From: an uncultured Lentibacter sp.
GTDB lineage: Bacteria > Pseudomonadota > Alphaproteobacteria > Rhodobacterales > Rhodobacteraceae
Reading direction: 5' to 3'
Length of the DNA: 64,000 bases
NCBI GenBank assembly: GCA_947497495.1
Contig: CANMGT010000003.1
Span: forward strand, 124,001 to 188,000
The stretch's first letter is position 1. Each line of letters starts with the position of its first letter. The position numbers and the translations under genes were made by a program. Below the pieces are notes generated by a model. The model searched no databases. It was given only the letters and a program-made list of their open reading frames with translations, and had not been told where the DNA came from. Positions 31,914 to 35,995 of the stretch are shown here, in pieces.

Positions 31914-32005
31914 AGGGTGCTGCTCGGTCTGCGTATTATTGTTGCTAGTATAGATACAATCGCAGGGGGCGTCCAAGGGCAATGCTTAAAAGAGGAAACA
32001 AAGTT

Positions 32006-32443
32006 ATGAAATACCTAGCATTCATCGCGGCATTGGCGGGGACGCCTGCATGGGCCGAGTTTGTCGCGCAGGACCAAACCCCGACTGGCAAGTTCACCAC
32101 GGCTGCCGAAGTGAAGCAGATCATGGAGGTGACCAAGCCCAACTGGGTGGCGGTGCGCGCCTATGAAGGGCAGGACTGGGTCTATCTGACGCAACTGCTG
32201 AGCTGGCGCTGCGGGCTACATGAAGTCAGGTTTTCTGTAAACGACGGCGAGATGCAGGTCTGGGAGATGCCAACCTGCCAGATGGACACCTCAACGCCGA
32301 ACGCCTTTCCTGACGACCAGTCTTTGATGATCTTGAAGACCTATGCACTGGACTCTGTGCAAACGATGCAGGTCGAGGTGCTTTTGGATGACATGAGCGA
32401 AATGAGTGCAAGCTATGAGCGCAAGGATGTGTTGATCCCTTAA
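32006..32443 (+). CDS. Secreted hypothetical protein
   Basis: Signal peptide MKYLAFIAALAGTPAWA; compact conserved-looking ORF with upstream AAGAGGAAA. Confidence 0.65.
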   Translation: MKYLAFIAALAGTPAWAEFVAQDQTPTGKFTTAAEVKQIMEVTKPNWVAVRAYEGQDWVYLTQLLSWRCGLHEVRFSVNDGEMQVWEMPTCQMDTSTPNAFPDDQSLMILKTYALDSVQTMQVEVLLDDMSEMSASYERKDVLIP

Positions 32444-32469: not shown

Positions 32470-32497
32470 GAAAGTGGTCGGCGCCCCTGGAATCGAA
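32470..32497 (-). repeat. Degenerate tRNA-Tyr 3'-end-like repeat (candidate att site of mini-island)
   Basis: GAAAGTGGTCGGCGCCCCTGGAATCGAA matches GAAAGTGGGGGGCGACCCTGGAATCGAA at 34875-34902 at 25/28 positions without gaps. Confidence 0.65.
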
Positions 32498-32697
32498 TTT
32501 AGCATGATTTTTAAAGATGCATCTTATCTCATAAAATCAAATTACTAGCGTTATTGTTGTCTTGCTGAACATCCGTATTGTATCGAAAAATAGTCAAGAT
32601 GTATCGAAGCCACTACTTCCAATCTTCACCTCGATCCGCGAGTGCGCCCAACTAAGGCGACCTCGGGGTCGAAGGTTGGAATCCGACATGTAGTTCG

Positions 32698-33570
32698 CTA
32701 CGCTTCTTTTGAGCTAGCTTGGGCAAGCAAGGTACTCGCGGCCAATCTTCCGAAATCATTGGCTGCTTGTGGGCTTGCACCGGTGATCAAGCGGCGGTCA
32801 ATGTGGCACGAATTATCTGCCTTTTTGTTGATGATTTGTGCGTCCAAAGCGTTCAGTTTCTCGCAAACCCACCACGGCATTGGGCCGGGCAGATACCCGA
32901 TCATTGGGGTTTGTTTGTCCACTGAATCAGGAAAGACGGTCATTTTGTAGCCCGAGTACAAGAAGCCATCTTCATTTTTTGCCGCCAGCAAGGCTGATGG
33001 TCCGTGGCAAAGTGCGAGTGTGTACAAGCCCTGACTATGCGCCCAATGCAGCACTTTGCCGACATCGGCATTGTCCGGCAACCCAAGCATGGCACCATGG
33101 CCACCCGGAATATAAACAGCGGCGTAGGGCGCATTATCGGTCATTTTGTTGGCAACGAAATCGGCAAGACTACCGGGGTTTGCAAACGCATCCGCATAGT
33201 CGCAGTATAGTTTTTGGACATCTGCGTCGTCGCTGGGCATTGCCCACATCTCGATTGCGACGGGTGCGCCTGTCGGCGTCACTATTTCAATTTCGAATCC
33301 GGCGTTGATGAGGTGCAACATGGGCAAACCCATTTCGACGGGATGATTACCCGTCGAGAATTTCTTGCCGTTCGCCATCGTCATGTTTCGCTCTTCGGTG
33401 CAGATCATCAGCACCTTTGATTTGTCGCCTTTGTATTTGGAAGCGTACACGCCGCCATCATAGTCCGTGGTGGACGATGTGCCCAGCCTTATCGCTAGGG
33501 GTGACGGGCTAAATGCGCCATCTGATGTTGGCGTTGGCGAGGCACGAAAAAGTTTGCGAAGAATGCTCAT
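32698..33570 (-). CDS. DJ-1/PfpI family protein (Hsp31/HchA-like type 1 glutamine amidotransferase)
   Basis: KVLMICTEERNMTMANGKKFSTGNHPVEMGLPMLHLINAGFEIEIVTPTG, VYIPGGHGAMLGLPDN, LYTLALCHGPSALLAAKNEDGFLYSGYKMTVFPDSVDKQTPMIGYLPG. Confidence 0.9.
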   Translation of the reverse strand: MSILRKLFRASPTPTSDGAFSPSPLAIRLGTSSTTDYDGGVYASKYKGDKSKVLMICTEERNMTMANGKKFSTGNHPVEMGLPMLHLINAGFEIEIVTPTGAPVAIEMWAMPSDDADVQKLYCDYADAFANPGSLADFVANKMTDNAPYAAVYIPGGHGAMLGLPDNADVGKVLHWAHSQGLYTLALCHGPSALLAAKNEDGFLYSGYKMTVFPDSVDKQTPMIGYLPGPMPWWVCEKLNALDAQIINKKADNSCHIDRRLITGASPQAANDFGRLAASTLLAQASSKEA

Positions 33571-33571
33571 A

Positions 33572-34213
33572 TCAGTTGACCTCTGTGACGATGGTGTCGC
33601 GGGATTTGCGCACTTTTCCCATTGGTAGCAACCAATCGCCGCTTTCGTCACGATACCCCAAAGGCAGCAGGACAACAGAGCGTAGGCCTCGTTCTCTCAA
33701 GCCTAAAATGTCGTCGACTTGGGCAGGGTCAAACCCTTCCATCGGTGTGCTGTCGACTTCTTGTTCTGCGGCAGCAACGAGGGCCACTCCCAATGCGATA
33801 TAGGCTTGGCGGGCTGCATGTGCGTAGTTCACCTCGGCGTCACGAGGAACATAATTGCTTTTCAGATTGTCGTAATAGGCGTGTAGCATTGGCAGGTCAC
33901 CACGTGCTTGAACGTTGAGATCGACAACTTCGTCGATCCGATCCGATGTATAGTTATCCCAAGTCGCAAAAACCAAAAGGTGAGAACCCTCCGTAATTTG
34001 GGCCTGATCGCCTGCGGCCTTTTGGATTCTTTCCAACACGTCCTTGTTGGTCACAACGACCACTTCAAAGGGCTGGGTGCCGCTTGATGTAGGGGCCATG
34101 CGGATAGTCTCGATGATCGTATCCAACTTCTCTTGTGGTACAGATTTGCTGGGGTCCATTTTTTTGGTCGCATAGCGCCAATTCAACTGTTCGATAAGGG
34201 TACTTTTAGTCAT
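33572..34213 (-). CDS. Nitroreductase family NAD(P)H-dependent oxidoreductase (NfsB-like)
   Basis: LIEQLNWRYATKKMDPSKSVPQEKLDTIIETIRMAPTSSGTQPFEVVVVTN; AAEQEVDSTPMEGFDPAQVDDILGL. Confidence 0.92.
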   Translation of the reverse strand: MTKSTLIEQLNWRYATKKMDPSKSVPQEKLDTIIETIRMAPTSSGTQPFEVVVVTNKDVLERIQKAAGDQAQITEGSHLLVFATWDNYTSDRIDEVVDLNVQARGDLPMLHAYYDNLKSNYVPRDAEVNYAHAARQAYIALGVALVAAAEQEVDSTPMEGFDPAQVDDILGLRERGLRSVVLLPLGYRDESGDWLLPMGKVRKSRDTIVTEVN

Positions 34214-34308
34214 GGGAACGTTCCTATTGCTGGTATTTATTTGGTGAGGTATACTTTTGTTACCGACTATGTATTCAGAACCTAAGAGCGCCACAAGAAG
34301 GCACAAAA

Positions 34309-34704
34309 ATGACCCTCGGTCACACAAAGGGAACCAACATGCTTGACGCAGAGCGATGTCCTGATTGCAAACGTATCAACGAAGTACTCTCGCGTGTCGG
34401 TGATCGTTGGAGTGTTCTCGTCATCATATCGCTGGCCGAGTACGGAACGCTTCGTTTTAATGAATTGAAGCGAAACCTGGGCATATCACAGCGCATGCTG
34501 AGCCTCACCTTGAAGGAGCTTGAGCGAGACGGTCTGGTCAATCGCACCTACCACTCGACGATCCCGCCAAAAGTTGAGTACAATCTAACGCCTTTGGGAG
34601 AGTCATTCCGTGAACCAGTTGTCGCATTGGGTCACTGGGCGCTTGGTAATCTTTCGACCATCGACACCGCACGTGCGAATTATGATGAAGCCTCAGGCAA
34701 CTAA
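34309..34704 (+). CDS. HxlR family transcriptional regulator
   Basis: RCPDCKRINEVLSRVGDRWSVLVIISLAEYGTLRFNELKRNLGISQRMLSLTLKELERDGLVNRTYHSTIPPKVEYNLTPLG; start may be the Met at 34339. Confidence 0.93.
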   Translation: MTLGHTKGTNMLDAERCPDCKRINEVLSRVGDRWSVLVIISLAEYGTLRFNELKRNLGISQRMLSLTLKELERDGLVNRTYHSTIPPKVEYNLTPLGESFREPVVALGHWALGNLSTIDTARANYDEASGN

Positions 34705-34874
34705 AAGCCCGTGAGAGCAACAGCGATGTGTGAATACGTGGATAATGCGGGTAATTTATTGTAATTATTACGAAATATCCGAACGTCTCTTGAGAAAAGA
34801 AATTGTTGCCCATGCGTGATCGATACATTCGTGTTGGGGTGTAGATGTTTTTACTGTTAACTTTCAAGCGCTTA

Positions 34875-34927
34875 GAAAGTGGGGGGCGACCCTGGAATCG
34901 AACCAGGCGTGCGTCTCCGCGAGGGAG
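34875..34927 (-). repeat. Duplicated 3' half of tRNA-Tyr
   Basis: 34884-34927 (44 bp GGGCGACCCTGGAATCGAACCAGGCGTGCGTCTCCGCGAGGGAG) is identical to 35022-35065+ of the intact tRNA-Tyr; diverges at the anticodon loop. Confidence 0.9.
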
Positions 34928-34962
34928 CCTCAGGCGGCCGTTGCCACAGCTTGCACCGCGTA

Positions 34963-34980
34963 GGAAACGCATGCGTTTCC
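34963..34980. repeat. 18-bp perfect palindrome GGAAACGCATGCGTTTCC
   Basis: Self-complementary; flanked by ACCGCG/CGCGGT that extend the hairpin; lies between the tRNA-Tyr fragment and the intact tRNA-Tyr. Confidence 0.9.
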
Positions 34981-35017
34981 CGCGGTTGGTGTGTGTTTTG
35001 GGTGTGCTTGGGATAAG

Positions 35018-35101
35018 TGGTGGGCGACCCTGGAATCGAACCAGGCGTGCGTCTCCGCGAGGGAGTTACAGTCCCCTGCCACACCTTGCGGCCTGTCGCC
35101 C
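35018..35101 (-). tRNA. tRNA-Tyr(GTA), CCA encoded
   Basis: Reverse complement GGGCGACAGGCC...GGGGACTGTAACTCCC...CCTGGTTCGATTCCAGGGTCGCCCACCA: 7-bp acceptor, GTA anticodon, long variable arm, T-loop TTCGATT. Confidence 0.93.
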
Positions 35102-35209: not shown

Positions 35210-35995
35210 ATGAAGAAGCCAAAGTGGGTTGTTAAGAAAGAACAAGGCGAGAAGCGCGAGGGCAAAGAGACGGTTTGGCTCTTTGGCTTACATGCTGTGC
35301 GCGACGCGCTGAGCAACCCTGCGCGCAAGAAGCTACGGCTTGTTTTGACCAAGAATGCGGCGGACAGGCTGGCGGATGTGCTGCCAACTGCGGGCATTGA
35401 GCCGGAAATGTGCGAGCCGCGCCGCTTTTCTGCCCCGCTTGACCCGAACTCGGTGCACCAAGGGGCTGCGCTTGAAGTGATGCCGCTGGATTGGGGCAAT
35501 GTCAGCGAAGTGTGCATTGGCGGCGGTGACGAGCGGCCAGCGCGCGTGATGCTGCTGGATCGCGTGACCGACCCGCATAATGTCGGCGCGATTCTGCGCT
35601 CGGCTGAAGTGTTCGGAGCGCGGGCTGTGATAGGCACCAAGCACCACAGCGCGCCGGAGACGGGCGCATTGGCGAAAACGGCCAGCGGCGCGCTGGAGCG
35701 CCAGCCTTACCTGAGAGTCGTGAACCTTGGTCGCGCGATTGAAGAGCTGAAAAAGGCCGGATACTTCGTGATCGGGCTTGATGGCGAGGCGGAAAGCGTG
35801 ATGGAAACCCACTTTGAGGAGCTTGGCACACGCCCGATCGCGCTTGTCTTGGGCGCCGAAGGGCCGGGCTTGCGCGAGAAAACCAAAGAACTCTGCGATG
35901 TTTTGGCCAAGATCGAATATGCAGGCGCTTTTGGCTCGCTCAACGTGTCAAACGCGGCGGCTGTAGCGCTTTACGCGGCGACGCGAGCGAAATAA
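35210..35995 (+). CDS. rlmB: 23S rRNA (guanosine-2'-O)-methyltransferase RlmB (SpoU family)
   Basis: VWLFGLHAVRDALSNPARKKLRLVLT; LLDRVTDPHNVGAILRSAEVFGARAVI; ALVLGAEGPGLREKTKELCD; SLNVSNAAAVALYAA. Confidence 0.93.
   Translation: MKKPKWVVKKEQGEKREGKETVWLFGLHAVRDALSNPARKKLRLVLTKNAADRLADVLPTAGIEPEMCEPRRFSAPLDPNSVHQGAALEVMPLDWGNVSEVCIGGGDERPARVMLLDRVTDPHNVGAILRSAEVFGARAVIGTKHHSAPETGALAKTASGALERQPYLRVVNLGRAIEELKKAGYFVIGLDGEAESVMETHFEELGTRPIALVLGAEGPGLREKTKELCDVLAKIEYAGAFGSLNVSNAAAVALYAATRAK

Follow-up and report, generated by a model that had tools for sequence, protein, structure and literature searches.

The 64-kb window analysed here, a contiguous stretch of 64,000 nucleotides from an uncultured Lentibacter sp., carries at its tRNA-Tyr/rlmB locus three genes set between copies of the 3′-end of tRNA-Tyr. 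The features are listed with window coordinates; L032 and L112 are loci of two other genera in which the same cassette was found.

31982..32443, plus strand: host gene flanking the cassette distally, conserved but without a Pfam match; the neighbourhood recurs in G004, G002 and G194 (~50% aa)
32475..32497, plus strand: distal attachment core, a copy of the tRNA-Tyr 3′-end (TGGTCGGCGCCCCTGGAATCGAA) with 2 mismatches, from the core scan; exactly the point where L032 and L112 become homologous
32579..32607, plus strand: direct pair of putative arm-type sites, TGTATCGA-N13-TGTATCGA, 104 bp from the core start; same geometry in 10 elements
32698..33570, minus strand: HchA, glyoxalase III/DJ-1 family, 290 aa (NF003168)
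33572..34213, minus strand: NfsB-like FMN nitroreductase, 213 aa (PF00881; NfsB-type structures)
34214..34338, no strand: divergent promoter/operator region with a conserved GGTATA-ATTTGT-ACC block and a CAAGAAGGCACA element
34339..34704, plus strand: HxlR/DUF24 regulator with N-terminal CPxC (PF01638)
34820..34827, minus strand: single inverted putative arm motif, TCGATACA; the proximal core is 60 bp away
34880..34902, plus strand: proximal attachment core and cassette end, 1 mismatch, from the core scan
34880..34961 (end at ~34961), minus strand: pseudo-tRNA-Tyr, 3′ part exact, 5′-half decayed; ARAGORN makes no call
34962..35017, no strand: spacer between pseudo-tRNA and functional tRNA-Tyr, outside the cassette
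35018..35101, minus strand: functional tRNA-Tyr (GTA), the integration target (ARAGORN)
35210..35995, plus strand: rlmB (TIGR00186), host gene flanking the locus proximally, conserved in 7 of 7 congeners

Boundaries and contents of the cassette

Three copies of the tRNA-Tyr 3′-end had been pointed out in the first-pass annotation, namely the intact gene at 35018-35101 (minus strand), an exact 44-bp copy at 34884-34927 and a distal copy at 32470-32497, and all three lie where it placed them; the distal copy indeed agrees with 34875-34902 at 25 of 28 positions. The middle copy, described there as a 3′-half, has these 44 bp intact but extends further, with a blastn alignment to the tRNA region over 75 positions (86%). 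It is a pseudo-tRNA, decayed in its 5′-half but intact in the 3′-terminal 44 bp, and it aligns with the functional tRNA adjoining the cassette in L032 and L112. The 23-bp core corresponds to the 23-nt 3′-end of tRNA-Tyr (TGGTGGGCGACCCTGGAATCGAA) and is found with no mismatch at 35018, one at 34880 and two at 32475. A scan of the whole 64 kb gave, beyond these three copies, no match with up to 6 mismatches, and three shuffled windows used as a control gave none with up to 5 and one with 6, which sets the repeats far beyond random T-arm matches. The cassette occupies positions 32475-34902 and is a discrete 2.4-kb unit bounded by 23-bp tRNA-Tyr cores. The segment of ~2.4 kb bracketed by tRNA ends, as first described, is confirmed except on the proximal side, where it ends at the pseudo-tRNA (34880) instead of reaching the intact gene; the 138-bp offset up to the intact tRNA-Tyr is outside the cassette. 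Pseudo-tRNA and offset may best be put down to something that happened later at this tRNA, either a duplication or the insertion and loss of another element. Blastn matches to the congeners begin only at ~35006-35015, near the right end of the spacer, and an 18-bp perfect palindrome (GGAAACGCATGCGTTTCC) lies in this spacer at 34963-34980, before the functional tRNA-Tyr. The AT-richness remarked on at first pass is borne out by composition, in which the cassette is the most atypical segment of its length in the window: its GC content of 0.499 (window average 0.578, sd 0.026) is below that of all 309 windows of equal size, and its tetranucleotide deviation is the highest among segments of the same length.

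The cargo consists of three complete genes, as annotated earlier, for an HxlR regulator (PF01638), a nitroreductase (PF00881) and a DJ-1-family protein. The last, initially labelled DJ-1/PfpI, belongs to the DJ-1 family but is specifically HchA/glyoxalase III, scoring 365.7 bits with NF003168 (cut-off 365) and matching HchA/Hsp31 structures at E ~1e-73 (best chain 3.7e-77). Pfam and further profiles match only these three genes in the cassette, and the reported absence of an integrase stands. The HxlR gene probably starts at 34339 rather than 34309, because the upstream ATG is not conserved among relatives. The N-terminal CPxC of HxlR is kept in 67 of 71 relatives, and the divergent HxlR/nitroreductase promoter (GGTATA..ATTTGT.ACC and CAAGAAGGCACA) is strongly conserved in an alignment of ~48 loci. 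Judging from the families, the HxlR/DUF24 regulator would sense an electrophile through its N-terminal cysteines and then derepress the divergent nitroreductase-HchA pair, which would detoxify quinones or nitro compounds and glyoxals. The conserved promoter and CPxC are what one would expect if the regulator were a thiol-based sensor of electrophiles with quinone/nitro and glyoxal detoxification under its control. HxlR-nitroreductase pairs are common as residents in the family; the source genome has a second one outside the window (G000:C1:482765-483838), 70% identical in nucleotides to that of the cassette.

The cassette and a sister element in related genomes

The right flank of the locus (tRNA-Tyr, rlmB) is conserved in 7 of 7 congeners and the left flank in 6 of 7, G007 differing, and between the conserved flanks each congener carries something different: ~130 bp in G005, 565 bp in G004 (the nearest relative), ImuB-DnaE2 in G001, RND efflux genes with ImuB-DnaE2 in G002, and FMO/SBF/dehydrogenase genes in G003. 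The ImuB-DnaE2 mutagenesis genes of G001 and G002 lie at L017 6484-11414 and L013 2155-6890. HchA, nitroreductase and HxlR are found there in none of the seven congeners, and the module is thus not syntenic at tRNA-Tyr in most relatives. A distal core was not detected within 6 mismatches in the islands of G001, G002 and G003, which supports a variable locus but not the action of an integrase. Comparison of the outer flank of the distal copy with the downstream flanks of congener tRNAs, tried as evidence for an empty site, was set aside since the similarity is not significant. G006 carries a textbook tRNA-targeting defence island at tRNA-Tyr, 16 kb long with an exact 27-bp tRNA repeat at its far end (L016, about 1.7-17.5 kb). 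Next to the tRNA it encodes a tyrosine integrase of 564 aa; its cargo is DarTG and a type I restriction-modification system, and a resolvase is present too.

Among 298 family genomes, drawn essentially one per genus, 12 have an HchA of the cassette type, and the cassette itself is also present at tRNA-Tyr in two other genera, in a MAG labelled Planktomarina (L032) and in G194 (L112). Nucleotide homology extends over 32475-34961 with L032 (85%) and over 32475-34954 with L112 (89%), beginning at the distal core and running into the tRNA on the other side; flanking rlmB is only about 68% identical to theirs. Broken down by segment, identity is 89-94% in the genes and 66-80% in the non-coding ends. 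The far ends of both units, which measure ~2.39-2.40 kb, have the exact 23-bp core, and exact tRNA-Tyr 3′-end repeats of 23-27 bp bound the elements in L032, L112 and G006. In trees the three tRNA-Tyr copies of the cassette form supported clades (HchA 96/88, nitroreductase 99/99), and other carriers of the module have only the coding part in common with it. These comparisons show the cassette moving between genera as one unit, always at tRNA-Tyr. It might be supposed that these are ordinary resident genes with T-arm-like repeats arisen by chance, given that HxlR-nitroreductase pairs are so common in the family and one lies elsewhere in the source genome. This is hardly credible, as core matches of such quality are not found by chance, the congeners are without the module here, no other segment of this length in the window deviates as much in composition, and the homology of the whole cassette to L032 and L112 refutes it.

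In G194 the cassette is adjoined by a second, diverged nitroreductase-HxlR pair (L112 10041-11173, 79% nucleotide identity), accompanied by an ornithine cyclodeaminase-family gene, and the core scan found no third core near the cassette and this pair. L066 (Loktanella), with HxlR-nitroreductase beside tRNA-Tyr, was rejected as a member because it has neither a second core nor arms, and in a Loktanella MAG such a pair lies beside two identical tRNA-Asp genes (L076 5209-5468). A search of plasmids with the cassette matched only coding parts, at 65-75%.

A sister element was found in the genus of G194, where an empty site (G312) can be compared with an occupied one (G310). The two are 95% identical and their similarity ends at nucleotide 23 from the tRNA 3′-end, which places the insertion point exactly at the tRNA-Tyr core; the pair concerns the copper element, not the detox cassette. 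The element of G310, ~6.15 kb in length, carries MerR, DoxX/MauE, cytochrome c, CopC, CopD, multicopper oxidase and Crp-like genes and has no integrase match; the contig ends overlap through the tRNA, so that the element abuts tRNA-Tyr. At its far end the core is followed by TTTAGCAT, which is also the arrangement in the cassette and G194; the element holds a different cargo, copper resistance, in the same kind of ends. Beside the copper element of G307, the 3′ part of tRNA-Tyr is found as a 65-bp match (L169 11854-11918) that breaks off within the anticodon region; this tRNA may thus undergo insertion of a second kind. It could also be thought that the cassette spread when the tRNA-Tyr region recombined homologously, not by site-specific integration, as on one side the tRNA gives homology that is nearly perfect, and gene transfer agents are a known feature of Rhodobacterales. 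Such an origin is very improbable: the distal side offers only the 23-bp core for pairing, the distal homology begins at this core, and G312 and G310 diverge exactly there.

Putative arm sites and candidate helper integrases

All three occurrences of the motif TGTA[TC]CGA in the 64 kb fall inside the cassette, two as a direct pair with a 21-bp period at 32579/32600 (TGTAYCGA-N13-TGTAYCGA) and one inverted at 34820. Counted from where the distal core begins, the pair lies at 103-104 bp in the cassette, G194, MAG-163, G310, G307, G006, G379, G431 and G565, and 105 bp in G571; the geometry of distal core and putative arm sites is the same in the cassette and in integrase-bearing islands. The arm pair alone matched 4 genomes among the 298 of the family, three of the matches being at tRNA-Tyr, and the control gave 3; the composite of core, spacer and arm pair matched 6 of 395 order genomes, with spacings within a 2-bp range, against none in the control. 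Viral contigs contained no arm sites. At the proximal end, on the tRNA side of the element, the autonomous islands of G006, G379, G070, G571 and G431 have a direct arm pair at -93/-72 from the core, instead of which the integrase-less cassettes have a single inverted TCGRTACA at -48 to -60; besides the cassette described here these are G194, with the motif at 60 bp, MAG-163, at 53 bp, and the copper cassette of G310, at 48 bp and in the form TCGGTACA. A pattern search for the inverted proximal arm gave no match, with a gap range that ended one base below the cassette's own spacing (55).

Relatives of the G006 integrase occur at tRNA-Tyr/rlmB in G379, G431, G070, G571, G314 and G163 besides G006 itself, those of G379 and G431 being 69-70% identical to it and the other four more distant or partial. 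The integrase island of G379 at tRNA-Tyr (L183) contains an NgoMIV-type restriction system, DndB-like and resolvase genes. No close homologue of the G006 integrase was found in the source genome (best match 26 bits) and no relative in viral contigs; plasmids and phages have only distant generic integrases, and no genome with helper integrase and cassette side by side was found. The integrase partner of the cassette is likely one that is specific to tRNA-Tyr and encoded by relatives, not by the source genome.

The reading preferred here, at a probability of roughly 0.78, is that of an integrase-less mobile cassette of the CIME (cis-mobilizable element) type, mobilised by an integrase supplied in trans. 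With its order of core, paired arm-type site, three cargo genes, inverted arm site and second core, the cassette would contribute DNA sites only. A tyrosine integrase from other islands targeting the same tRNA-Tyr would bind the arm sites, act in trans and recombine the cassette core with the tRNA 3′-end; tRNA-Tyr would be restored by integration, and the DNA would travel between cells. The proximal end, with one inverted motif, is unlike that of the autonomous islands, so that recognition by exactly this integrase is not assured and the true helper may be a related, unsampled one. The two distal-core mutations and the pseudo-tRNA suggest that the copy in the source genome is old and perhaps immobile.

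Of the alternatives raised at first pass, a remnant or a non-autonomous cassette, recurrence in two other genera and the G312/G310 site favour the latter, spreading as such. As a deletion remnant, the cassette would derive from an integrase-bearing tRNA-Tyr island that lost all but its ends and cargo, and would never have moved in integrase-less form. Such remnants do exist, G571 having kept ~1 kb in which both arm pairs remain and the integrase is truncated, and CIMEs are usually described as decayed elements (PMC5704250). For the cassette this origin is nevertheless improbable, since a compact unit with the same two junctions in three genera implies that the same deletion happened three times, or that it happened once and the shortened form then moved, and two unrelated cargos (detox, copper) have a common integrase-less end design with the inverted proximal arm. 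It is suggested more tentatively, at somewhat less than even odds, that a dedicated class of such cargo cassettes parasitises the tRNA-Tyr defence-island integrase across Rhodobacterales, having a metric core-arm site and a proximal end of its own (one inverted arm) and spreading between genera as units.

Relation to known elements and significance

CIMEs, defined with reference to ICESt1-related elements of Streptococcus, keep attachment sites at both ends and have lost integration and transfer genes (PMC5704250). The cassette likewise has putative attachment sites at both ends, the cores at 32475 and 34880 coinciding with the homology limits, and contains only HchA, nitroreductase and HxlR, without integration or transfer genes. 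They are presented there as decayed ICEs/IMEs that tandem accretion allows to be mobilised in cis (PMC5704250). The cassette is compared with them on both points. As to descent from an ICE/IME by module loss, the distal arm site of the cassette is common with integrase islands and the proximal end differs; as to accretion, no helper adjoins the cassette, and the second nitroreductase-HxlR pair of L112 comes without a third core. Unlike CIMEs, the cassette is compact, recurs across genera, has arm sites in common with integrase islands and shows no tandem helper.

With tRNA-targeting islands the cassette shares the bounding tRNA 3′-end repeat and a repeat-less empty site, the latter from the sister pair G312/G310, but not an integrase of its own. 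Like the cassette, ssrA islands of Dehalococcoides insert near the T-loop of a tRNA-like gene with a ~20-bp direct repeat, and many integrase-less cargo islands lie beside integrase-bearing ones (PMC3146451); there a serine recombinase acts at tmRNA, whereas here a tyrosine integrase and tRNA-Tyr are concerned, and the cassette is of small size and found across genera. Additive flexible genomic islands of Alteromonas (PMC4119200) and Methylophilaceae (PMC10872708) have a conserved tRNA target, interchangeable cassettes and tRNA 3′-end repeats, for Methylophilaceae from 330 bp upwards; as far as the text of these reports goes, the cassettes are not tied to an integrase through arm sites, unlike the case here. 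Tycheposons (Prochlorococcus, Methylophilaceae) are also cargo elements that marine bacteria carry in linkage with a tRNA, but they have a tyrosine recombinase of their own and a size of 4-200 kb (PMC10872708), whereas the cassette is 2.4 kb and has none. Among the papers listed by searches of open-access literature there is none on this tRNA-Tyr system, which is not proof of novelty. Beyond the known kinds, arm sites here provide a link to an integrase family that can be named, one end design holds two different cargos, and the compact form has spread between genera.

Integrase-less islands are usually dismissed as decayed remnants. Here the core, arm sites, spacing, three copies in three genera, a sister cassette, an empty site and candidate helper integrases can all be named, which makes movement of integrase-less cassettes in trans directly testable and provides a search pattern for more of them. 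If the dedicated class proves true, it would be the site-specific-integrase counterpart of non-autonomous transposons.
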